From the NCBI GenBank assembly GCA_024698075.1, contig JAILRP010000047.1, forward strand, positions 1 to 32,310: DNA of 32,310 nt, written 5' to 3'. The translations under genes were made by a program, and so were the position numbers. The notes under the pieces are model-generated. The model was not told the origin of the DNA and ran no database searches. It saw nothing but the letters and a program-made list of their open reading frames with translations. The stretch comes from Lachnospiraceae bacterium. GTDB lineage: Bacteria > Bacillota > Clostridia > Lachnospirales > Lachnospiraceae. Numbering within the stretch: the stretch's first letter is position 1; each line of letters opens with the position of its first letter. Of the stretch, positions 13,898 through 31,546 are shown one piece after another.

Positions 13898-15088
13898 TTA
13901 TTCCACGGTGATAACATCTTCAAGGATGTAATGGAATGTGGGATAGGAACTGTCAGCATTTTCAATGTAGCCTTTCTTCAGGTCATAGGTATCGGAAGGA
14001 TCATCGGGATCAACGCCCGTATAATTGCCTTTGAAGACAAAATCAACGCGTCCGCGCTTGAACTGGCTGACTGCACTGCCCATGGCACGCTCGATCCCCG
14101 ATGCCGCGATCTGCATGTTAAGGTCATCCATTTCCACCCAGCCCTGATCGAATCCCGCTGAGACATCATTCCCGTGGATCTTTCCCGAAACAAAGGACTC
14201 TATTGGCTTGTTGGCCATTACCGCTTTAACGGCCGAGAGAACATACGGCTCCCAGCAGATCCTCGAGGTGATGAGAGACGTGGCGGGCGCGACGTCCGAC
14301 ATGCTCTGGTTGTATCCCACAAAATAGACTTCCTTGGTTTCGGCGGCCTCTTCGCATGCGATAGCCGGACCGATCGTGTCCGTATGCTGCGAGATGACTA
14401 CGCATCCTTCATCGATGAGATGCTGCGCGGCACTCTTTTCAAGTGCATAGCTGCTCCATGTACCCGTATAGCTGACACGCATTACGGCCTGGGAGACGAC
14501 GGAACGCACTCCCATCAAAAATGCGGTGTATCCGGAAATGACTTCCGAAGTGGGGAAAGCGGCAACGAATCCGACGACAGCCTCGTCATTTGTGATCGTC
14601 CCGTCAAGTATCATCTGCCTTAACTGGACGCCTGCGGCGATGCCGCTTATGTATCTGCCCTGGTAGGCCTCGCCCTTGAACGTATGGTAGTTCTCCGGCA
14701 CTGTCTCATTGCTCATGTCCATGTATGAGGTCTGGCAGAACTGTATGCTGGGATATTCGGGCGCGAGCTTCCTGACCAGTTCGCTGTATCCGTTGAAGAA
14801 TATTATGTCGCAGCCTTTTCCTGCCAGCTCCCTGAGAGGCTCCTCCATCTCATCATCCAATACGTTGCTGCATGTTAGGATATCCACCCGTTCGCCGTAT
14901 TCCTTTTCAAGTGCGTCTTTTGCGAGTGAAAAATTATAAGTATAAGGCGTGCTCTCGTCATTGTCATATATGAACCCGACGGTCAGATGCTCCCGGCCCC
15001 CGGTAAGGTTCATGAGCCTGAAGCTTAAAAGGAGGACACCCAATATGAACAGACAGGTTATGAAAGTCATTATATATACGCGCCTCAT
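13898..15088 (-). CDS. Membrane-anchored BMP/PnrA-like ligand-binding protein
   Basis: 396 residues. An N-terminal uncleaved-looking membrane helix (about 6-26; no lipobox) is followed by a periplasmic-binding-protein fold of the basic membrane protein (BMP, PnrA/TmpC-like) family. Recognisable family stretches are VGFIYD, GKGCDIIFFNGYSE, GEAYQGRYISGIAAG, VGFVAAFPTSEVISGYTAFLMGVRS, VVISQHTDT and VYFVGYNQSM. Relatives bind purine nucleosides for ABC uptake. Here no ATPase or permease gene is present. Instead the start codon overlaps the stop of the HD-GYP sensor gene by four bases (ATGA), so the two products are made together. I infer that it works as an extracytoplasmic sensing partner rather than a transporter component; the ligand is unknown. 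Confidence 0.85.
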   Translation of the reverse strand: MRRVYIMTFITCLFILGVLLLSFRLMNLTGGREHLTVGFIYDNDESTPYTYNFSLAKDALEKEYGERVDILTCSNVLDDEMEEPLRELAGKGCDIIFFNGYSELVRKLAPEYPSIQFCQTSYMDMSNETVPENYHTFKGEAYQGRYISGIAAGVQLRQMILDGTITNDEAVVGFVAAFPTSEVISGYTAFLMGVRSVVSQAVMRVSYTGTWSSYALEKSAAQHLIDEGCVVISQHTDTIGPAIACEEAAETKEVYFVGYNQSMSDVAPATSLITSRICWEPYVLSAVKAVMANKPIESFVSGKIHGNDVSAGFDQGWVEMDDLNMQIAASGIERAMGSAVSQFKRGRVDFVFKGNYTGVDPDDPSDTYDLKKGYIENADSSYPTFHYILEDVITVE

Positions 15089-18000
15089 TCCTTGCCTCCT
15101 TTCTCGTCATCACAGGCCTTATCGCCGGCTTTTTCTTCACCCTTGTCACCGCCGTCGGCATTCTCATCATCTTTATCATCACCGCCGGCCTTGCCGTCCT
15201 CCTGCATCTGGGCGGTCTGTATCTTCTTGTCCTCCTCGACGCGGCGTGCAAGCTCTTCCTCGGCATCGTGCCCGGCCTGCTCAATTTCCGCCCTCATCTT
15301 GGAGTAGATCGCTTCAAGGTCGATGATGCCCTTGTCTATCAGCCTGAAGAATGCATCAAGTGCATCCGGGTCGAACTGCGTGCCCCGTCCGCGTTTCATT
15401 TCGTTCATGACATAATCGGTGTCCATGTGGTTGCGGTAGACGCGGTTGGATGTCATCGCGTCGAACGCATCGGCCACGCCTATTATGCGGCCGAAGAGGG
15501 GTATGTTCTTGCCGGATAGGCCCTGGGGATATCCGCGCCCGTCGTAGCGTTCATGATGGAAGCGTGTTCCGTCCTCAACATGCTGGACAAGGGTAAAATC
15601 CTTCAGGATGTCGGCGCCCCTGTCCACGTGGGACTTCATCTGGACATATTCCTCGTCCGTCAGCCTGCCGACCTTATTGAGCACGCTGTCAGGAACGCCT
15701 ATCTTGCCTATGTCATGAAGCTGGGCGGCTCCGCGCAGGCTGGCAAGGTCCTTGCGCCTGTGCCACCATTTGAAGCAGTTCATTTCCTGCGCGATCAGCA
15801 CCGAATACTCCGCGACGCGCTGTGAATGCTGCCGTGTGCGGACGTCCTTGGCATCGACTGCGTTAGCTATGGCGGTTACCGTCTGGTTGGCCATGTTCAG
15901 TTTGATCTGCTGCTGGTTGAGCTGTCTTTGGACGATGAGCCATGTAAACCATATGATGATCAGCGACAGGAGCATCAGCATGTATACATGGAAGTACGTC
16001 TGCTCGTAGATCTCACCGGTCTTTATCAGTTCAAACTTGCGCTCCTCAAGCACACGGTCTCCCGAACTGTCGAGTATCGCAAGGTGGAACGTATAGCTGC
16101 CGGCAGGAAGGTTGACATAGATTATGTTGTTAAGATTGTTCTGCGGAACGATAGTCCACTGCGAATCATAACCTTCGAGATAATAACCGACATTGGGCTC
16201 CTGGATCGTGTAGTTCAGTATCTCCGGAGAGAGCTCTATCCTCTCGACACCCTGGCCTGCCGTTATGGCTCCGCGGCGGACCGGCGGCTGCACTACGTCG
16301 TCGAACATGACCGAGGCCAGCTGCATCCTGTAGGAGCGGACATCGCTGTTGTACTTGTCGACATCTATGATGTAAACGCCCGTGTCACAGGGAAGATACA
16401 GACTGCCGTTACCGTCGTAGTAGTTCCAGGAATTGGCGGTGAGTGAAGTTCCGAGCCCCCTTCTCGCATCGAGGAGTTCCCAGGCGATCTCTCCGTCTGC
16501 CACGAGCTCGTCGCGCTCGACTACATATATGCCGGCGGAAGACATGACAAAAAGAGTATCCTCATCCTTGACCCAGATGTCATAGTTATTGAAATAAGGG
16601 AACTTGTCCAGCACGAGTATGGTCCCATCCGGTTCGAGATAGCACAGGCTGTTGCTCGTGACTATGAAAACGCCTTCGGTTTTCGGATCCTTGATCGTGC
16701 GCAGGATGACGCCGCTGCTGAGCCCGTCATCGCGGTCCAGTATTTCGGAAACTTCGCCGTCCTTTATGATCGCAAGCCCGTCGCCGTCTGTGCCGGCAAG
16801 CACAGTTCCGTCAGAAAGCTCGGTCAGCGTCAGTATCATCGAATTGATGAGGCCGTCCTTGTTCTGTATCGTACGTACCACCTTATGGTCCCTGATATAG
16901 CTCATCCCGGTATCGCCGGCGGCGAGTATCGTTCCGTCAGAGAGTCCGGTCACGATCCTGGCGCGGTTCCCGAAGCTGCCTGTATCCGCGCTGTATGTCC
17001 AGGTGCTGCCGTCAGCGGCGTATTCGATCAGGCCGTTTCCGTATGTACATACCCACAGATGATCATCTTCATCAACATACATGCAGCGGATCCTCTTGCC
17101 GTCAAGTTCCGCGGTCAGGTCATTCTCTATCTGGTTGCGGCAGGCCCTGTCGACGACATCGAGACCCTTATCGGTGCCGATGTAGTAGTTGCCCTGCCAG
17201 TAGACAATGGTATTTACCACGCGGCGTTCCATGCCGATGGCACTGTAAACGTCCTTGAAGGGGGACTTGGCGAGACGAAGGAGCCCGAGCCTTGAAGACG
17301 TGAACCAGAAGTTCCCCTGGTAGTCATAGAGCATCTTGTCGATGGAATTGTTGAAACTGTTCGTATTGAGCAGATGATAACCGGCCTTGTCGATATAGGA
17401 GACGCCGTTGTCCGTGGAAATGAACAGGGTCCCGTCCTCAAGGTAGCTTAAGTTGTTGATGCTTGAGACGTCTGCGCATGTGATCACGCCGGTACGGCGA
17501 AAATCATCCCCGGAAATGTCATAGCTGTAAATGTGGTTGGTCGAGGAACCGACCATGAGCGTGCCGTCAGGCGCAAAGGCGCAGCAGTTGAAGATCTCCT
17601 GCTCATCGGGAAGCCTGACAGACGAAATGACGCTGCCGGCACCGATCAGGAAAAGGGTACCGTCAGTAGCGACCGCTGCGACATGGCCGTTCCGGTCAGC
17701 GGTTATGCTGTCCGTATATGTTACTTCATCAAGGGTGCTCACATCCTTGAGGCCGTTGTTCATGACAAGGACCTGCATGCTATTGGTCGTGCCTATATAA
17801 TAATATCCGTCTGTTGCGCGGATGATGTTCCTTACGGAATTGGATGGCAGTCCGCTTGACTGGTCGATCACGTTCACGACCTGTTCGCGTATCACTATGG
17901 ACAGCCCGTTGTCATTGGTGCCGATCCACAGGCGGCCTTCCTCATCGACGTAAAGGCAGTTGACGTTCTTTACCGAAGGATAGTCGTCAACCCATCGGAA

Positions 18001-18813
18001 TTCACGCCCGTTATAGCGGTACAGGCCTGCATATGTGCCTATCCAGAGCACTCCGTCATTTGTCTGGGCGATGTCATTGGCTTCGCCGCAGGGCAGTCCG
18101 TTGTTGCTGTTGTATACGCTCTGGACATAATCATTGTAGTCCGGAGCTTCTGCCCCGGAAGAGGGGGATGCGGCTTCGGCAGGAGTGGTGACCGCGAGCG
18201 AGAGGGCGAGCGAAAGGGCGAGTATAAGTGACGCACCCGCGCCGGGATCGATGCCTCCCGCATAGTTTCGGCTGCTGTAACGGCGGCGGATCAGGATCAC
18301 GATATAAACGATCGCGACTGTGACCATCTTGTCGGCAAATTCTATGGCAAGCTGGCCGAGGGTGCAGCATACGATAAGGGGCCATTCCTTGTTGAGAAGG
18401 TAATCCACAACGCCGTCGCCCCATGCGTTGCCCGTATAGCCTCCATCAAGGATCATGTCTATCGGCACTGAAACGGCAAGCGAAGAAAGAACCGCGATCG
18501 AAGCGGCCTTCATGAAGCCATAGAAACGGTCGAACCAGTTACGGTGGGCCGCTATGCCTATAATGATGCCGAGAGATATGCTCGTGAGGGAATATGCCGC
18601 CGACAGGCGGTTTATGACACAGTAGGCAAGGTTTCCCGTAACGCCCGTCATAGCGCCGCATACAGGACCTGCTATGCAGGCGCACAGCACGGTTCCGAGA
18701 GAATCGAGCCACAAGGGGAGGTTAAGCCGCACGGCGAAGAACTTTCCGCCCACATTGAGACACACACATAATGCTATAAACAGAACGATCTGCCAGTTTT
18801 TCCGGTTTTTCAT
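15085..18813 (-). CDS. Membrane sensor: ECF-S-like membrane domain, Reg_prop propeller, Y_Y_Y, HD-GYP
   Basis: 1242 residues. Residues 1-178 form a multi-helix membrane domain resembling the S component of ECF transporters (LWLDSLGTVLCACIAGPVCGAMTGV). A second hydrophobic stretch ending in TPAEAA (194-215) looks like a signal peptide. From about 228 to 820 there are repeated two-component-regulator propeller blades (DGVLWIGTYAGLYRYNG, EGRLWIGTNDNGL). A Y_Y_Y domain (about 860-940) and one membrane helix (about 950-970) follow. The cytoplasmic HD-GYP phosphodiesterase domain has HD at 1033-1034 (QLHDIGKIGVPD) and HHERYDGRGYP at 1086-1096, so it should hydrolyse c-di-GMP. The tail of about 60 residues is charged and low-complexity. 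A good promoter lies upstream (18848-18876). It is translationally coupled to the BMP-like gene. The likely role is adjusting c-di-GMP to an extracellular signal. Confidence 0.92.
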   Translation of the reverse strand: MKNRKNWQIVLFIALCVCLNVGGKFFAVRLNLPLWLDSLGTVLCACIAGPVCGAMTGVTGNLAYCVINRLSAAYSLTSISLGIIIGIAAHRNWFDRFYGFMKAASIAVLSSLAVSVPIDMILDGGYTGNAWGDGVVDYLLNKEWPLIVCCTLGQLAIEFADKMVTVAIVYIVILIRRRYSSRNYAGGIDPGAGASLILALSLALSLAVTTPAEAASPSSGAEAPDYNDYVQSVYNSNNGLPCGEANDIAQTNDGVLWIGTYAGLYRYNGREFRWVDDYPSVKNVNCLYVDEEGRLWIGTNDNGLSIVIREQVVNVIDQSSGLPSNSVRNIIRATDGYYYIGTTNSMQVLVMNNGLKDVSTLDEVTYTDSITADRNGHVAAVATDGTLFLIGAGSVISSVRLPDEQEIFNCCAFAPDGTLMVGSSTNHIYSYDISGDDFRRTGVITCADVSSINNLSYLEDGTLFISTDNGVSYIDKAGYHLLNTNSFNNSIDKMLYDYQGNFWFTSSRLGLLRLAKSPFKDVYSAIGMERRVVNTIVYWQGNYYIGTDKGLDVVDRACRNQIENDLTAELDGKRIRCMYVDEDDHLWVCTYGNGLIEYAADGSTWTYSADTGSFGNRARIVTGLSDGTILAAGDTGMSYIRDHKVVRTIQNKDGLINSMILTLTELSDGTVLAGTDGDGLAIIKDGEVSEILDRDDGLSSGVILRTIKDPKTEGVFIVTSNSLCYLEPDGTILVLDKFPYFNNYDIWVKDEDTLFVMSSAGIYVVERDELVADGEIAWELLDARRGLGTSLTANSWNYYDGNGSLYLPCDTGVYIIDVDKYNSDVRSYRMQLASVMFDDVVQPPVRRGAITAGQGVERIELSPEILNYTIQEPNVGYYLEGYDSQWTIVPQNNLNNIIYVNLPAGSYTFHLAILDSSGDRVLEERKFELIKTGEIYEQTYFHVYMLMLLSLIIIWFTWLIVQRQLNQQQIKLNMANQTVTAIANAVDAKDVRTRQHSQRVAEYSVLIAQEMNCFKWWHRRKDLASLRGAAQLHDIGKIGVPDSVLNKVGRLTDEEYVQMKSHVDRGADILKDFTLVQHVEDGTRFHHERYDGRGYPQGLSGKNIPLFGRIIGVADAFDAMTSNRVYRNHMDTDYVMNEMKRGRGTQFDPDALDAFFRLIDKGIIDLEAIYSKMRAEIEQAGHDAEEELARRVEEDKKIQTAQMQEDGKAGGDDKDDENADGGDKGEEKAGDKACDDEKGGKE

Positions 18814-18995: not shown

Positions 18996-19880
18996 ATGTT
19001 TGCTAACATTTTTGGGAATTATCTGGTCAAAAAGAAGATCATCACCGAGGAAGAATTCTTTGCCATCAAGATGCAGTTTGACCGCACAAGGGTCAAGCTC
19101 GGGCTCATCGCAGTGTCAGAAAAGCTGATGACCGAGGAACAGGCCGACGAGGTCAACTATAAACAGCAGATGATGGACAGGAAGTTCGGCGACATCGCGG
19201 TGTCCCTGGGATACCTCACCGAGATCCAGGTCGAGAGGCTTCTGACCCTCCAGGGCAACGAATATATGCGCTTCTGCCAGGCGGCGGTGGACAAGGAGAT
19301 CCTGACGCTCGACCAGATAGAGGGGGCGCTTGATTACTTCAAGAAAGAGAACGGATTTACCTTTGCGGATATCGAGAACATAAAATCAGGGGATGTCGAC
19401 CGCATACTTCCGCTATATCTTCCGGAGATGCCGGACGGGCCGTATACGGATCTCATGGCACTCACATTCCGCTGCATCAACCGCCTCGCATCCGACGACA
19501 TATCGATAAAGCGCGGATACAAGCCGCTCAGCTACAGGACAGGCGCCGTTGCGATGCAGGAGATCGTGGGTGACTACAGGGTGCTCACGGCATTCTCGGG
19601 CGATGACAAGGGTATACTGGCGATAGCGGAGGCGTTTGCCAAGCAGTTCTTTGACGGCGTGAGCGTAAATGCGCTTGACTCTGTCGGAGAATTCATTAAT
19701 ATATGTCACGGGCTGTTCGCGACCGAAAAGGGAGGCGAGGGCATGAACCTTAATCTCATGCCGCCGACGCTCTCAACTGAGCCGGTCGAGATCAACGGTT
19801 CGATGATAGTTGTGGTCCCGATCTTCATCAATCAGCAGCCGCTCGACTGGGTAGTCTGCCTGGGCGCACCGTCTGAATGA
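18996..19880 (+). CDS. MshEN-like repeats fused to a CheX-type phosphatase domain
   Basis: 294 residues, soluble. The N-terminal half contains four copies of a helical repeat of about 24 residues at roughly 5-27, 35-57, 63-86 and 92-115. The pattern is (K/R)hGxhhVxxxxhTxxQ, for example KLGLIAVSEKLMTEEQ and KFGDIAVSLGYLTEIQ. This is the pattern of GspE-N/MshEN domains, several of which bind c-di-GMP. The C-terminal half (about 145-290) follows the CheC/CheX/FliY phosphatase pattern and retains one ExxN motif, EFINICHG (Glu 232, Asn 235), used to dephosphorylate response regulators such as CheY-P. The gene heads a unit that ends with a receiver-HD-GYP protein. I infer a link between c-di-GMP and receiver dephosphorylation; c-di-GMP binding itself is not shown. 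Confidence 0.82.
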   Translation: MFANIFGNYLVKKKIITEEEFFAIKMQFDRTRVKLGLIAVSEKLMTEEQADEVNYKQQMMDRKFGDIAVSLGYLTEIQVERLLTLQGNEYMRFCQAAVDKEILTLDQIEGALDYFKKENGFTFADIENIKSGDVDRILPLYLPEMPDGPYTDLMALTFRCINRLASDDISIKRGYKPLSYRTGAVAMQEIVGDYRVLTAFSGDDKGILAIAEAFAKQFFDGVSVNALDSVGEFINICHGLFATEKGGEGMNLNLMPPTLSTEPVEINGSMIVVVPIFINQQPLDWVVCLGAPSE

Positions 19881-21568: not shown

Positions 21569-22339
21569 ATGGATTTCAAGCCCTGCATAGACATACATAA
21601 CGGCAAGGTCAAGCAGATCGTAGGCTCAACGCTCTCCGACGAGTCGGGCGCGGCATCCGAGAACTTCATAAGCGACAGGAACGGCGCATATTATGCGTCG
21701 CTCTACAGAAGCTACGGACTTGAGGGCGGGCATGTCATAAACCTCAACAGGGCAGACAGTCCGTTTTATGATGCCTCAAGGCAGCAGATGTTTGATGCGC
21801 TTTTTGCATATCCGGGAGGGCTCATGGCAGGCGGCGGCATAAATGCGGACAACGCCGCTGAATATATCGATGCCGGCGCGAGCCATGTAATAGTCACAAG
21901 CTTCGTTTTTAGGGACGGAAAGATCGACAGGGAAAATCTTGCGCGGCTTAACGGGGCAGTGGGTCCGGAACACATCGTGCTTGACATGAGCTGCATATAT
22001 AAGGATGGCGCCTATATGGTCGCCACCGACAGATGGCAGAAGATATCGGACGAGAAGGTATGTCCGGAACTTTTTGAGTCACTTGCCGGATGCTGTGACG
22101 GTTTTCTCGTTCATGCGGTCGATGCGGAGGGAAGATCGTCGGGGATAGATGAGAGGCTGATCGGCATCCTTGCCTCTTCTCCCATAAGCATATGCTACGC
22201 CGGAGGGATATCATCCCTTGATGATATCAGAAAGCTTCGCGAAGCAGGCGGCGGCAGGGTTGATTTTACCATAGGCTCGGGACTTAAAATCTTCGGAGGG
22301 AGCCTTGGCATAGAGGAGATCATTGAATGTATACGGTAA
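21569..22339 (+). CDS. hisA: Eukaryotic-type HisA (ProFAR isomerase, HIS6-like)
   Basis: Isomerase of histidine synthesis converting ProFAR to PRFAR; 256 residues from the ATG at 21569. A TTG one codon earlier is an alternative. The sequence follows the fungal/plant HIS6 subtype rather than ordinary bacterial HisA: CIDIHNGKVKQIVGSTL at the start, YYASLYRSYGLEGGHVI, GGGINADNAAEYIDAGASHVIVTS, IVLDMSC and the C-terminal VDFTIGSGLKIFGG. The first catalytic Asp is residue 8 and the second lies in VLDMSC. It is 6 bases after dapB and overlaps the next gene by 13 bases. No other his genes are in the window. The subtype assignment rests on remembered family patterns. Confidence 0.88.
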   Translation: MDFKPCIDIHNGKVKQIVGSTLSDESGAASENFISDRNGAYYASLYRSYGLEGGHVINLNRADSPFYDASRQQMFDALFAYPGGLMAGGGINADNAAEYIDAGASHVIVTSFVFRDGKIDRENLARLNGAVGPEHIVLDMSCIYKDGAYMVATDRWQKISDEKVCPELFESLAGCCDGFLVHAVDAEGRSSGIDERLIGILASSPISICYAGGISSLDDIRKLREAGGGRVDFTIGSGLKIFGGSLGIEEIIECIR

Positions 22340-23448
22340 TGATAATCGATGACAACGATACCGAGCTTCTGGTGGCCAAGAAGGCGCTTGAGAGGCAGTA
22401 CCGTATCATCGATCTCAACAGTTCCAAGGCTGCTCTGCAGCGCCTCATAAAGTCAACGATCATGCCGGACTTCATCCTTCTTGATGTTGCCATGCCCGGC
22501 GTCAACGGATTTGATTTCATAATGCGTCTTAAAGCGAACGAGAAGACCAAGGGGATTCCCGTTCTGTTCATATCGGGCGACAAGGAGAACACAACGGAGA
22601 TGGAGGCCTACAGGCTCGGCGCCGTTGATTTTATCCGAAAGCCCATCATACCGGATCTCCTCCGTAAGCGCATGGAGCTTCAGGCGGACGTCCTCGAGTA
22701 CAAGACCCAGATGAGCCAGTACAATACGCAGCTGCAGCAGGCGGCGAGCTACCAGGCCAGGAATGCGATGAACCTGGAGTACTTCATCATCGGGATAATC
22801 ACGGACCTCATTTCGCAGAAGGACCCCTACACCGGCAAGCACTGCGTGTGCGTGTCCAAGTATATGGAGATCCTGCTCAAGGAGATGCTCCTGTCGGGCG
22901 TAAACTACGGCATTGACCCCAATGATTTTGAACTTATCCTCTTAAGCTCGAGACTCCACGACATGGGCAAGATTGGCGTTCCCGACGCCGTCCTGTCGAA
23001 AGTCGGCAAGTATACTCCCGAAGAGTTCGCGCTGATGAAATCGCATACCACGATGGCGGCCGACGCCATACAGAAGTATGCCTACCTTCTTCCAAACAAC
23101 AAGTTCCTTTACTATACTTTCCAGATGGCAAAATACCATCACGAGCGCGTTGACGGGAACGGATATCCCGAAAGGCTTGCCGGGGCGAACATCCCGATCC
23201 TGGCGAGGATACTGGCTGTCGCGGACGTATATGACGGCCTTGTTGCCGAGAGAAGCTACAAGAAGGCCAAGACACACGAGGAGGCCTACAACATAATCAC
23301 ACAGGGCGCGGGCGTTCAGTTCGACCCGCAGGTCGTGGCGGCATTCCAGCGCGTGCACATGGACATGCGCGATGCAACGCTGTCGATCGAAGCGCAGATC
23401 CAGCGGAATCTCGAGATGTCCGCACAGGTCATGAACAGGCAGAGATGA
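22327..23448 (+). CDS. Response regulator with HD-GYP c-di-GMP phosphodiesterase domain
   Basis: 373 residues, RpfG-type. The receiver domain (1-120) is complete: acidic pair Asp 8/Asp 9, phospho-acceptor Asp 53 (LLDVAMPG) and Lys 105 in RKP. After a linker helix, the HD-GYP domain has RLHDMGKIGVPD (His 211, Asp 212) and HHERVDGNGYP (271-281), so it should cleave c-di-GMP when activated. The start at 22327 overlaps the end of hisA by 13 bases and has GAGGAG 8 bases upstream. An ATG at 22339 would remove the first strand. It is the last gene of its unit, ending at a strong terminator. No histidine kinase gene is in the window. Confidence 0.95.
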   Translation: MYTVMIIDDNDTELLVAKKALERQYRIIDLNSSKAALQRLIKSTIMPDFILLDVAMPGVNGFDFIMRLKANEKTKGIPVLFISGDKENTTEMEAYRLGAVDFIRKPIIPDLLRKRMELQADVLEYKTQMSQYNTQLQQAASYQARNAMNLEYFIIGIITDLISQKDPYTGKHCVCVSKYMEILLKEMLLSGVNYGIDPNDFELILLSSRLHDMGKIGVPDAVLSKVGKYTPEEFALMKSHTTMAADAIQKYAYLLPNNKFLYYTFQMAKYHHERVDGNGYPERLAGANIPILARILAVADVYDGLVAERSYKKAKTHEEAYNIITQGAGVQFDPQVVAAFQRVHMDMRDATLSIEAQIQRNLEMSAQVMNRQR

Positions 23449-25086: not shown

Positions 25087-25115
25087 TTGAAGAATCTGTC
25101 ACAAAAGCCTATAAT
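25087..25115 (+). promoter_or_regulatory. Promoter of the hydrogenase-chemoreceptor gene
   Basis: TTGAAG (25087-25092), 17-bp spacer, TATAAT (25110-25115). Transcription should start near 25122, about 33 bases before the ATG, with GGAGG 6 bases from the start codon. Confidence 0.8.
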
Positions 25116-25154
25116 AATCATATATATACTCTATGAAATACACGGAGGCGTATA

Positions 25155-27086
25155 ATGAGTCTTGTCAAAACGAATGATAACTGTATCGGATGCAACAGAT
25201 GCATAAGGGCCTGCAGCAGCATGGGTGCCAACATCGCCGTCGAGCGCGGGAGAGGAAACGTGATCGATGTAGACCCGGACAGGTGCATTGCCTGCGGGGC
25301 GTGCCTTGACGTGTGTGAGCACGGCGCAAGGGAGTTCATCGATGATGTTGACAGCTTCTTTGATGACCTTAAGAAGGGGCAGAAGATCTCGGTGCTCATA
25401 GCGCCGGCATTTCTGGCCAACTATCCGAGGGAATACGAGAAGTATCTCGGAATGCTGAAGAAGCTTGGCGTCAACAGGTTCATAAGTGTTTCATTCGGAG
25501 CGGACATAACGACATGGGGCTACATCAAATATATTACCGAAAATAAATTCTACGGCGGAATATCACAGCCGTGTCCCGCAGTTGTGGGCTATATAGAGCG
25601 TTATACTCCCGAGCTGATCCCTAAGCTGATGCCTGTGCAGTCACCCATGATGTGCGCGGCGATATATGTCAGCAAATACATGAAGGTGACTGACAAGCTC
25701 GCGTTCATAAGCCCCTGCATAGCCAAGAAGAATGAGATCGACGATCCGAACAACAAAGGCTATGTATCATACAATCTTACGTTTTCACATCTTGTGAAAT
25801 ACCTCAAGGAGCATCCCGTAAACGGGGCGCTTCCTTACAAGGATGAGATCGAGTACGGACTCGGATCCATATATCCGATGCCGGGCGGCCTCAAGGAGAA
25901 CGTATACTGGCTTCTCGGTGAGGACGCGCTCGTGCGCCAGATGGAAGGCGAGCACCACATGTACGAATACCTGAAGCGGAACAAGGACCTTCTCAAGAAT
26001 TCAAGGTCGCCGTATCTGTTCGTTGATGCGCTCAACTGTACGAACGGATGCCTGTACGGTCCCGGAACGGAGGCACGTGCATCGATGAATGAGGACGTGT
26101 TCATGACCATCCAGAGGATCAAGGCCGAGAGCAAGAACGAGTCCAAGAAGTCCGCATGGGGAAGGGGCCTGACTCCGGCCAAGAGGCTTGAGGCACTCAA
26201 CAAGCAGTTCGCAGACCTGAACCTGAATGATTTTCTGCGCAAGTATACCGACAGGAGCGCGGCCTGCACTTATAAGGTTCCGACCGAAAGGCAGCTCGAG
26301 GACATATATGCGCAGATGAAAAAGGACACTGCCGAAAAGAGGAAGATCGACTGCGGATGCTGCGGATACGGCTCATGCCACGATATGGCCGTTGCGGTAT
26401 TCAATGGGTTCAACCATATATACAACTGCGTCCACTACATCAAGGACATGGCGTATGAAGAGAAGGACAAGGCAGTCGGGCTGGCCGATGAAGTACAGCG
26501 CACTCAGGATGAGATGAGGGAGAAGAAGCTTTCACTTGCGGATGAGATCAGTGAGAACTTCGGCATCCTTACCGCCTCCATATCACAGATAGAAGAGGCG
26601 AGTGCCGACAACGCACATCAGACAGCCGGAATATCCGATGACATGGATGAGGTTGAAAACTTTGCATCTGACCTCAAGGAAGTCCTGAACAACATCGAAG
26701 GCTATCTGGTCAATCTTGATGCCAACAACAAAGAAGTCATAGCGATCTCGTCACAGACCAACCTGCTCGCTCTCAATGCTTCGATCGAGGCGGCACGTGT
26801 CGGCGAGGCAGGCAAGGGATTTGCGGTCGTTGCCGATGAGATCAAGAAGCTGGCTGACGATTCCAAGATGACCGCCGATGACAGCAACAAGAACAACAAT
26901 GACATAAAGGTTACCATAGAGCATCTCGTCGAGGAGGCATCAAAGCTCAAGGATATCGTGGACAGGGTAAATGCCAGGGCCACGAGCCTCGTGGCATCCT
27001 CCGAGGAGGCTACGGCATCAATCGGTGTCGTAAAGGAGACCACGGGAAGCGTGGAGCAGTCGCTCAAACAGATACTCGAACACTGA
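25155..27086 (+). CDS. [FeFe]-hydrogenase-like sensor fused to a methyl-accepting signalling domain
   Basis: 643 residues, no membrane segment. Two 4Fe-4S motifs (Cys 10, 13, 16, 20 and Cys 44, 47, 50, 54) lead into an [FeFe]-hydrogenase H-cluster domain. All four H-cluster cysteines appear present: Cys 140 (SQPCP), Cys 188 (SPCIAKKNE) and Cys 295/299 (NCTNGC). The proton-relay Cys of catalytic enzymes is Pro 139, and the two usual H-site Met residues are Ser 186 and Leu 293. These changes point to a sensory rather than hydrogen-producing enzyme. A further CGCCGYGSC cluster motif (400-408, with Cys 425) follows. From about 440 there is a coiled coil with the chemoreceptor hairpin tip ([18 protein letters not shown], then [15 protein letters not shown]; about 531-565). 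It is a single-gene unit between its own promoter and tandem terminators. The likely role is reporting hydrogen or redox state to a CheA-like kinase, which is not in the window. Confidence 0.9.
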
Positions 27087-27097
27087 ACAGGAACCGG

Positions 27098-27119
27098 GGG
27101 CGGATATTCCGCCCTTTTT
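27098..27119 (+). terminator. First terminator after the hydrogenase-chemoreceptor gene
   Basis: GGGCGGA (27098-27104) pairs with TCCGCCC (27108-27114), followed by TTTTT. A 7-bp GC-rich stem placed 11 bases after the stop codon. Confidence 0.9.
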
Positions 27120-29636: not shown

Positions 29637-30869
29637 ATGACCGAGCTTAGGGTGATCATAATCGATGAAGACAGGGAGCGCCGCGAGAAGGTGGCCAAGC
29701 TTCTTCCTGAGTATATGGACGCCGTCCCCACCGGAACCGGGGAGGGCGCGATCGAGCGCATCAAAAGGGATGCCGAAGGGAAGCTTCCGGACCTTGTGAT
29801 ACTGTGCGGTGACGATACAAAGCATTTCGGCCTGTATGTGTTTGACTGGATGGTCAACAGGTCGGGCGATTCCGACATCGCCGCGATACCTGTCATCGTG
29901 CTGACTGATGATGAATTCTCCGATGCGAGCCTTGAGTTTCTCGAGATCGGGGATGTCATGTTCTATGAAGGAGAGATCGAAGAGGGCGGCCTGTTCTCAG
30001 CCGTGAGCGGCATGATGGACGAGGCCGATTTTCGTCCGGAACCGGTTGAGCCTTCCTACGAGGAGATGCGCAGCATCGACAGGCTGATGGGCTGCAGCGT
30101 TCCCGCCCCCGGTGACGAACAGAGGGCCGTGGTCCTCGATATGGAAACGAGGATCGAAAATCTTGAGGCGGCGCTCGTGCGCGGCAGGAAGCGTGCCGAA
30201 GACATCAGGACACTCCTTACGGCCGCACAGCAGATGAAGTGTGACAAGGGGGACGGTTCTTTTGACACATTTTCAAAGAGTGACAAGGGGGACGGTTCTT
30301 CTGACACAGTTTCAAAGAAAACGGCAGGCGCTTCCTCATTTCTTAAAAAAGCCCGTGAGAAGGCAGAAGCAGGGGATGCGGTCGGACGCCTGAAACAGAG
30401 AGCGATGGAAGATCCGGGATCGGCGCTCGGAGCGCAGGGCACGGTCAGGATGGAAGACAGGCCTGCGGAGCCCGCAAAACCGGTCCATGCACCGGACGAG
30501 AAGAAGACCGTCGTAATAGTTGATGACGACTTAAAGACCAGGAAGCTGTGTTCACTCTTCCTGACACAGAAATATAATGTGATCGCGTTTGATTCGGGGA
30601 TCAAGACGGTTGACTTTTTCATAAGGAACAGGGTCGACCTGCTGCTCATAAACCCCGTGCTCGAAGGAATGAGCGGGCTGTCGACGGTCGCGAGCATACG
30701 CATGCATCCGGGAGGAACTGAACTTCCGGTGATGTTCATAGTCGGCGACAATTATACGGGAGACCGGGCAAGGCTGTATGCGGACAACGTTGTGGGCATA
30801 CTGAACAAGCCGATCAAGCAGGGCGTGATAGCACAGGCAGTTGAAGGATTTTTTGAGGGCAGGGCATGA
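29637..30869 (+). CDS. Double receiver-domain protein, both domains lacking the phospho-acceptor Asp
   Basis: 410 residues, with no DNA-binding or enzymatic output domain. Receiver 1 (about 1-130) begins VIIIDEDRE but has Cys 57 where Asp is expected (LVILCGDD). A linker of about 150 residues contains a helix and a 13-residue tandem repeat encoded at 30240-30317. Receiver 2 (about 290-410) keeps the acidic pocket (VVIVDDD) and the Lys of LNKPI, but has Asn 339 in place of the acceptor Asp (LLLINPVLEGMSGL). Neither domain should be phosphorylated in the usual way, suggesting constitutive or structural protein-protein contacts. It starts 14 bases after the bactofilin stop and overlaps the next gene by four bases (ATGA). 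Confidence 0.88.
   Translation: MTELRVIIIDEDRERREKVAKLLPEYMDAVPTGTGEGAIERIKRDAEGKLPDLVILCGDDTKHFGLYVFDWMVNRSGDSDIAAIPVIVLTDDEFSDASLEFLEIGDVMFYEGEIEEGGLFSAVSGMMDEADFRPEPVEPSYEEMRSIDRLMGCSVPAPGDEQRAVVLDMETRIENLEAALVRGRKRAEDIRTLLTAAQQMKCDKGDGSFDTFSKSDKGDGSSDTVSKKTAGASSFLKKAREKAEAGDAVGRLKQRAMEDPGSALGAQGTVRMEDRPAEPAKPVHAPDEKKTVVIVDDDLKTRKLCSLFLTQKYNVIAFDSGIKTVDFFIRNRVDLLLINPVLEGMSGLSTVASIRMHPGGTELPVMFIVGDNYTGDRARLYADNVVGILNKPIKQGVIAQAVEGFFEGRA
30240..30317 (+). repeat. Two tandem 39-bp repeats inside the receiver-protein linker
   Basis: Copies at 30240-30278 and 30279-30317 share the core GTGACAAGGGGGACGGTTCT followed by T(T/C)TGACACA and TTTCAAAG. Each is 13 codons long and encodes DKGDGS..DT.SK. 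The ends of the core, GTGACAA and TTGACAC, are imperfectly complementary, so each copy can form a hairpin. The core resembles short dispersed repeats seen in clostridial genomes. Confidence 0.85.
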
Positions 30870-31546
30870 AGAAGAGGATCCTTATCGTAGATGATGATAT
30901 CATGACGCTCAAGATACTGAAGAAATATCTTGAGGATACGTATGATGTGGTGACCGAGAATGCGGGATACCGTTTCATCGAAAAGATGACGAGCTATGAG
31001 GCTGACATGATACTTCTGGACATAGAGATGCCGGTGGTCAACGGCCTGCAGGTTTTTGATGCCCTAAGGGCCAATCCGGAGATGAACGGCGTGCCGGTCG
31101 TGTTCCTGTCGGGGATGTCAAACCCGAACCTCGTGCGCGAACTGATGGGAAAAGGAGCGGCGGGCTATCTCGTCAAGACCACGCCGAAGAGCGAGCTCCT
31201 TGCCAGGCTCGAAAAGATATTCAGCGAGGGGATAGGCAGGATGCCGACGTCGGTGCTGATACTCGACAGCGACATCGATACCCTCAGGAAGATGCGCACG
31301 ATCCTGACTGACAGCGACTTCAGGGTCAAGGCGGTCAGGTCGACGATGGAGGCTGCCGAATACATCATGGCCCACCGGCCTAACGTTTTCATCATAGGCT
31401 CGGACCAGTCCGGCGCAAAGCCGCAGGAAGTGTACGATTCTCTCGAGAGCGAGATCAGGAGCTGCCAGGTGGTGCCGATCCTCATCGGGGAGGATTTTTT
31501 CGCAACCGAGCTCATTGACAGGGTGAAGGCCGCACTGAGGGAATGA
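30866..31546 (+). CDS. Double receiver-domain protein with one canonical receiver
   Basis: 226 residues. Receiver 1 (1-120) is complete: VDDD at 8-11, phospho-acceptor Asp 52 (LLDIEMP), conserved Ser in FLSG and Lys in YLVKTTP. Receiver 2 (about 128-226) starts LILDSDID, but its acceptor position is Gly in VFIIGSDQSG and no KP motif is present, so it is degenerate. There is no output domain. It is translated in coupling with the preceding double receiver (ATGA overlap). A plausible design is that the one active receiver conveys a phosphorylation signal to the assembly formed by the others; no kinase gene is present. Confidence 0.9.
   Translation: MKKRILIVDDDIMTLKILKKYLEDTYDVVTENAGYRFIEKMTSYEADMILLDIEMPVVNGLQVFDALRANPEMNGVPVVFLSGMSNPNLVRELMGKGAAGYLVKTTPKSELLARLEKIFSEGIGRMPTSVLILDSDIDTLRKMRTILTDSDFRVKAVRSTMEAAEYIMAHRPNVFIIGSDQSGAKPQEVYDSLESEIRSCQVVPILIGEDFFATELIDRVKAALRE

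Follow-up and report, generated by a model that had tools for sequence, protein, structure and literature searches.

A probable cytosolic chemoreceptor with a HydS-type [FeFe]-hydrogenase module as its input in a Lachnospiraceae bacterium

The window, a stretch of 32,310 nucleotides from a Lachnospiraceae assembly (2.49 Mb in 105 contigs, 94.3% complete), carries a forward-strand gene, reading from ATG to TGA at 25155-27086, whose 643-residue product joins an [FeFe]-hydrogenase H domain to the signaling domain of a chemoreceptor. We posit, with a probability of about 0.6, that this protein is a chemoreceptor of the cytosol that takes its input from a catalytically detuned HydS-type module, senses hydrogen or redox state and signals to CheA. 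In the mechanism that we propose, the H site, or the redox state set in the neighboring 4Fe-4S clusters, would respond to hydrogen or to the hydrogen/ferredoxin redox poise; the signal would then reach the coiled coil by way of the C-terminal 4Fe-4S domain, and the tip of the coil would bind CheW/CheA and alter kinase activity and hence swimming. What travels from the H domain to CheA along this path could be a conformational change rather than electrons, by analogy with TamHydS, in which H2 induces secondary-structure changes that are not driven by reduction of the C-terminal cluster (PMC13104023). The proline that replaces the proton-relay cysteine should cut the site off from protons and make turnover slower, which would be expected of a sensor. 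The sequence itself shows the cofactor ligands, the pocket lysine, the lost relay cysteine and the intact tip of the protein, and the chemotaxis, flagellar and hydEFG genes of the genome; binding of the [2Fe] part, hydrogen as the signal and control of CheA are inferred.

Pfam places a Fer4 dicluster at residues 9-58 of the window protein, Fe_hyd_lg_C at 77-303 (E 3.4e-30), the FeS model PF04060 at 397-426 (E 7.2e-6) and MCPsignal at 530-640 (E 2.6e-20), with no PAS match, and a membrane helix is not expected, because the highest 19-residue Kyte-Doolittle mean is only 1.18. The preliminary description, made from the sequence without database searches, had reported this assembly of two 4Fe-4S motifs, an H domain with four ligand cysteines and a chemoreceptor tip, without a membrane helix, and Pfam, motifs and hydropathy bear it out; its further CxCC...C motif is C400-C403-C408-C425, and its reading of the H site holds as well, with P139 at the relay position, both methionines replaced (S186, L293) and the lysine and glutamate of KKNE kept (K191, E194; Table 1). 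None of the best 25 of 81 NCBIfam matches to the protein reaches its cut-off; the highest-scoring are the hydrogenase models for group B1, at 142 bits against a threshold of 450, and for group A, at 95.8 bits against one of 405.95. The solved structures closest by sequence are hydrogenases over residues 3-239 and chemoreceptors over residues 498-628, and the AlphaFold model (mean pLDDT 81.7, mostly >85 to residue 440, with confidence reduced at 231-250, 301-330 and in the coiled coil) matches solved [FeFe]-hydrogenases in Foldseek (best E 7e-17). Neither the model of the full protein nor that of the coiled coil alone, a single helix over residues 2-219 of 220, turns at the tip, a point against the proposed reading; the single helix is taken as a limit of shallow single-chain prediction, not as evidence. 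A scan of the window with a single pattern found no sigma-28-type promoter.

Table 1. The hydrogenase-chemoreceptor gene and its flanking signals, in window coordinates
Feature	Position	Strand	Basis
Whole gene: HydS-type H domain / FeS / MCP fusion, 643 aa	25155..27086	+	ORF and translation; aligned with 56 full-length relatives
Ribosome-binding site GGAGG	25144..25148	+	Sequence
Sigma-70-like promoter TTGAAG-17-TATAAT, upstream of the gene	25087..25115	+	Consensus scan, 10/12 matches; 3 sites in the region vs 2.5 in shuffles
Terminator-like stem, then T run	27095..27111	+	Consensus scan; 2 sites vs 2.0 in shuffles
4Fe-4S motif 1, C10-C13-C16-C20	25182..25214	+	Invariant in 57/57 rows
4Fe-4S motif 2, C44-C47-C50-C54	25284..25316	+	Invariant in 57/57 rows
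[FeFe]-hydrogenase H domain PF02906, residues 77-303	25383..26063	+	Pfam, 105.9 bits; Foldseek to solved hydrogenases
L1 SQPCPA: C140, H-cluster ligand; P139 replaces the proton-relay Cys (CpI C299)	25563..25580	+	
L2 SPCIAKKNE: C188, ligand; S186 replaces M353; K191 = K358; E194	25710..25736	+	
L3 LNCTNGC: C295 and C299, ligands; L293 replaces M497	26031..26060	+	
C-terminal 4Fe-4S motif Cx2Cx4Cx16C (C400, C403, C408, C425)	26352..26429	+	PF04060; four Cys invariant in 57/57 rows
Chemoreceptor coiled coil, MCPsignal at residues 530-640, no membrane helix	26430..27083	+	Pfam, hydropathy
Putative CheA/CheW-binding hairpin tip, E545 at the tip, then 98 residues	26736..26852	+	Tip kept in 57 rows; compared with the genome's other MCPs
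Methylation-like site, +72 from the tip Glu	26991..27020	+	Motif scan; E/Q at 617 in 44/57 and at 618 in 39/57 rows

Relatives were sought in a family sample of 299 genomes, 111 of which have a match at E 1e-30 or better. Alignment A1 comprises the window protein and 56 full-length chemoreceptor-type relatives; it omits L031, L033, L044 and L046, whose frames are broken or truncated, as well as L068, L074, L077, L079 and fragments, with L068, L077 and L079 being included in alignment A2. Its 57 rows and the 57 carrier genomes discussed below, among which the window's own genome is counted, are different, overlapping sets, some genomes giving two rows. All 57 rows match both PF02906 and PF00015, so the fusion is not due to chance and the domain order first noticed in one protein recurs across the family; PF04060 is matched in 50 of them at E 0.001. 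The twelve accessory-cluster and four H-cluster cysteines are invariant and the pocket residues invariant or nearly so. Together with the phylum-wide counts below, these alignments indicate that the chemoreceptor-type H-domain architecture is widespread and tightly conserved.

Residue positions were carried over from published enzymes by motif and MAFFT alignment, and L094 was counted as chemoreceptor-type in the residue counts and the tree on the strength of its alignment to residue 606. Among 58 chemoreceptor-type rows, proline at the relay position, serine at the M353 site and leucine at the M497 site each occur in 57, and K358, which we take to be the cyanide partner in the H-cluster pocket, is kept in every one; the relay position is also Pro in all six kinase-type rows. 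Replacement of C299, M353 and M497 is described for sensory enzymes (PMC8163306, PMC10055695). At these three sites the group A rows (n=5) have C, M and M, and the group B rows (n=4) C, G and M; the PAS-type rows (n=12) have Cys (11/12), Gly (12/12) and N or S, and the D-like rows (n=4) A, S or T, and N. By Pfam, 25 other relatives include seven with GGDEF and EAL domains, six with histidine-kinase domains and nine with the PAS model PF00989. In the seven GGDEF/EAL rows three of the four ligand cysteines are always kept and the fourth in six, the pocket has decayed, and K358 (K191) survives in only two; that the pocket is strict in chemoreceptor-type rows and decayed in these relatives supports the sensor reading.

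The tree (76 rows, 422 columns), whose root was placed on group A by choice, gathers 49 rows into a single branch with 100/100 support; one of them has no output, and the others end in chemoreceptor, kinase or GGDEF/EAL domains. This clade, with the window protein, lies apart from the group A (100/100), B-type (98/95), D-like (100/100) and 12-row PAS-type (100/98) rows; the order of the D-like branch and the 49-row clade is unsafe, because the program warns that long branches meet at that join. Five changes are needed to account for kinase output inside the clade and one for GGDEF/EAL output, counts from which gain and loss are indistinguishable; the proteins with kinase output lie among those with chemoreceptor output, and output type therefore does not follow ancestry. 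Tree placement and residues agree with the preliminary assignment of the H domain to the sensory, HydS-like proteins rather than to group A: the group A features TSCCP, MPC and M497 are absent, and the window protein has the two N-terminal 4Fe-4S motifs, the four H-cluster cysteines, the lost C299, the replaced M353 and M497 and the Cx2Cx4Cx16C motif of HydS groups C and D, the last being called the unifying feature of these groups (PMC13104023), together with the conserved hairpin tip sequence of the MCP family.

A protein of this kind is not without precedent. The preliminary description, which gave PAS or kinase-type domains as the usual outputs of sensory hydrogenases, needs amending on this point: HydDB has listed an [FeFe] group C2, "Chemotactic (putative)", since 2016 (PMC5037454). 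In that class, too, an [FeFe] H domain putatively senses H2 and acts through methyl-accepting chemotaxis proteins. By HydDB's class description, the window protein, with PF02906 and PF00015 on one chain, is a further member of this known putative kind, whereas its tree clade mixes kinase and chemoreceptor outputs. TamHydS (group D / M2e; PMC8163306, PMC13104023, PMC11803613) likewise has two N-terminal 4Fe-4S motifs, an H domain and Cx2Cx4Cx16C, and shares the changes M353 to Ser and M497 to Leu; unlike it, the window protein adds a chemoreceptor domain and has Pro at the relay position, where D-like rows, which lie outside its clade, have Ala. The label D-like is itself tentative: it reflects the fit of the C-terminal motif to the TamHydS residue numbers of PMC13104023 (E392 and D393 in 4/4 rows, D403 in 3/4) rather than a named reference sequence, and at the M497 site these rows do not have the Leu that TamHydS is reported to carry. 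TmHydS (group C / M2f; PMC10055695, PMC8163306) has the same cluster set, a sensory proposal and altered C299, M353 and M497, but its output is PAS, and PAS-type relatives, with their Cys and Gly at the first two sites, form a separate branch. Closer to home, the genome's PAS-input receptor L012, also of putatively cytosolic type, has the same tip and a coiled coil of similar brevity, in which 91 residues follow the tip Glu (98 in the window protein), but uses PAS domains as its input.

Nor is the architecture confined to this family. A phylum sample of 398 genomes yielded 124 with a match at E 1e-40. Among its 17 new, best-scoring loci (L237-L253), to which the motif counts apply, the tip pattern occurs in 14 of the best H-domain proteins, spanning ten families beyond the window's, and two of the remaining three match the chemoreceptor model; with at least ten other families involved, the chemoreceptor output is no novelty. 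All 17 proteins carry xQPCP, (S or G)PCxxK, LNCxxGC and Cx2Cx4Cx16C. In a whole-protein profile search of genome contigs the chemoreceptor tip acted as a search pattern, so only the first three of 80 loci (L113-L115), which alone match most of the query, were used; the best named match, L113, is from a Lachnospiraceae bacterium, and L115, a Bacteroidales record of which one open frame was used, matches at 31% over query residues 8-623. We offer a bolder view as a speculation with the odds against it: the clade marked by xQPCP, SPCxxK, LNCxxGC and Cx2Cx4Cx16C would be a separate sensory branch in which the H domain passed from enzyme to receptor. In some lineages this receptor would work without HydE, HydF and HydG, and so either lack the usual [2Fe] cofactor or obtain it by some other route, and the output would have been exchanged between chemoreceptor and kinase several times.

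On the output side, binding of CheA and CheW by the hairpin tip is general knowledge of MCPs, and CheW is expected in any genome that has chemoreceptors. All 57 carrier genomes have CheW, as compared with 105 of 242 others (Fisher 3e-18) and 27 of 54 genomes whose relatives are not classed as chemoreceptor-type (Fisher 4e-11), values that overstate the association because kinship is ignored. The 54 include four genomes with doubtful or partial matches (G029, G285, G087, G249), all with CheW, which were not placed among the carriers and without which the count is 23 of 50. Thus the chemoreceptor output proposed in the preliminary description is found only together with CheW, a result that says, at the level of gene content, that the domain would be kept only where it is able to function as one. 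G101 has a divergent second copy (L078), on a long branch in the tree, at a distance of ~4.4 kb from two CheW genes; at this locus (L203, 5848-7821) a response-regulator-like gene and the two CheW matches follow within ~6 kb downstream.

In the window protein 98 residues follow the tip Glu, as against 155-163 in 12 of the genome's 13 other receptors; seven of these 12 have a methylation-like site at +114, six of them also at +121, and the exception is the PAS-type receptor with 91 residues. With a post-tip arm about six heptads shorter, the protein may not join the arrays of the 12, a point against our preferred reading. Members from other families have 81-98 residues (14 proteins), so the short arm is a family trait, suggesting separate cytosolic arrays.

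Neither a che nor a hyd operon is seen in the window, as had been stated, although a CheX-like gene lies at 18996-19880 (+; residues 185-260 match PF13690 at 28.5 bits, just above the threshold of 27, and the N-terminal part is long); by eye, a gene that begins much like this one occurs near the homologue in L213. The chemotaxis and maturation genes are elsewhere in the genome. Its flagellar-chemotaxis run on contig 22 includes FliA, CheB and FlhA over NCBIfam cut-offs, CheA and CheD as best matches below their cut-offs, and CheC and FlhB recognized by eye; HydE, HydF, HydG and a TM1266-type regulator are grouped on contig 15, and each of them exceeds its cut-off. There are 14 chemoreceptor-domain matches, the window's included, and three CheW matches, the third of which is on contig 35. 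The three H-domain matches are the window protein, a catalytic-type group A hydrogenase with TSCCP and MPC motifs that adjoins a NuoF-like subunit, and a sensory paralogue, L056 (contig 13, 7277-9820, -), with H domain, FeS, GGDEF and EAL; the decayed pocket and mostly kept cluster cysteines of its sub-branch of seven suggest a 4Fe-4S-only input to cyclic-di-GMP control. Also in the window, a 1242-residue protein with a beta-propeller (Reg_prop, Y_Y_Y) and an HD domain (15085-18813, -) adjoins a Bmp-family lipoprotein-like gene (13898-15088), and the two look like a ligand-to-c-di-GMP sensor pair. The surroundings of the window's response-regulator genes are otherwise housekeeping-looking.

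The maturases complicate the picture. Of the 57 carriers, 31 have a detected HydE, 32 a HydF and 27 a HydG; 27 have all three, six some and 24 none, and 19 of these 24, which include G116, G022, G157, G135 and G242, are at least 94% complete. Carriers are no richer in HydG than other genomes (27/57 vs 105/242; Fisher p 0.66), and a HydG protein search of the 30 HydG-less carriers gave hits in six of them, at 23-32% identity, and none in the other 24. These counts speak against a simple hydrogen-sensor reading; the protein may respond to redox state or some further signal with no [2Fe] part involved. An H-domain-derived redox or gas sensor that holds 4Fe-4S clusters only, including a cubane on the H-cluster cysteines, and reports ferredoxin poise, oxygen or another small molecule to CheA is possible, if improbable: at E 0.001, 23 of the 24 carriers without HydE/F/G lack a HydG match (the last has one at 5e-5), two of them (G233, 100% complete, and G255, 99%) have no other PF02906 match at 1e-5 either, and the proline at the relay position would suit such a sensor. 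Against this, the pocket residues that in known enzymes serve the [2Fe] part differ by no more than one or two rows between the 24 rows from maturase-less genomes and the 33 others, although the GGDEF/EAL relatives exemplify how it fares under relaxed constraint; catalytic-type [FeFe] hydrogenases whose motifs are intact persist in several carriers that lack HydEFG (e.g., L221-L224), so that the missing maturases may reflect a wider gap and not a peculiarity of this protein; and in G151 (72% complete) hydE, hydG, hydF and the chemoreceptor-type HydS gene stand in a row (L197; G151:C25:1-5854) with gaps of 16, 210 and 19 bp, the HydS gene lying 19 bp behind hydF. Absence of HydG alone, tried as a sign of a cofactor-less sensor, was weakened by the kept catalytic-type hydrogenases and the equal pocket conservation. 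Either the maturases were lost both often and recently, or they are absent from these sequences, or another route exists; N runs in the loci checked (only 10 N in L210 and 100 N in L171) do not obviously explain the gap. HydG gaps are not new: Clostridium genomes that encode hydrogenases but show no HydG are reported in an acetogen survey (PMC9431212).

Two further alternatives concern what the protein does rather than what it binds. The fusion could act on CheA but not on swimming, controlling gene expression or cyclic-di-GMP through a non-motility phosphorelay; the coiled coil shorter than in 12 of 13 other receptors, the kinase and GGDEF/EAL outputs within the same clade, and the response regulators of the window (22327-23448, 29637-30869 and, by eye, 30866-31546, all +), one with an HD domain, would fit this, but the only CheA-type protein found via its CheW domain and two of the three CheW matches sit among flagellar genes, and we consider it unlikely. 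Unlikelier still is a working hydrogenase that uses its coiled coil for assembly only: all H-cluster ligands are present, but the near-universal loss of the relay cysteine, the conserved tip and the presence of CheW in every carrier argue against it. A detuned HydS-type module that signals to CheA thus remains our preferred reading.

A survey by eye of the nearest three genes on each side, with the gene located in 19 of 20 loci, gave two further arrangements. In G116 (L198, 3515-9093) a CHASE2-cyclase gene, a group-B-type hydrogenase and the chemoreceptor-type HydS gene adjoin, the hydrogenase lying 290 bp upstream of the latter; in G108 (L202, 6182-10162) two differing chemoreceptor-type HydS genes stand in tandem, 87 bp apart. 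At the other loci no hydrogenase or che neighbor was seen, save this tandem copy and the response-regulator-like gene of L203, and the scarcity of such neighbors counts against the preferred reading.

The literature available to us, consulted in extracts, terms the role of sensory [FeFe] hydrogenases putative or unclear, and in these extracts a gut survey counts them among those needing further study (PMC12578642), PMC9431212 discarded its own C2 hits by its validation checks, and H-cluster motifs were hardly detectable in C1 proteins of another phylum (PMC11406978). Our literature search met no experiment on a chemoreceptor-type HydS in the portions of text that it covered, nor did it meet there the residue signature, the output exchange or the maturase puzzle, which we regard as new here. 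Taxis toward or away from hydrogen, or a redox equivalent, would matter to fermenters that depend on hydrogen-consuming partners. Since the H domain is here joined to the best understood bacterial output, CheA, the question of whether sensory hydrogenases signal becomes directly testable, and the carriers without HydE, HydF and HydG allow a second test, of whether a pocket of this kind has any need of the [2Fe] cofactor.
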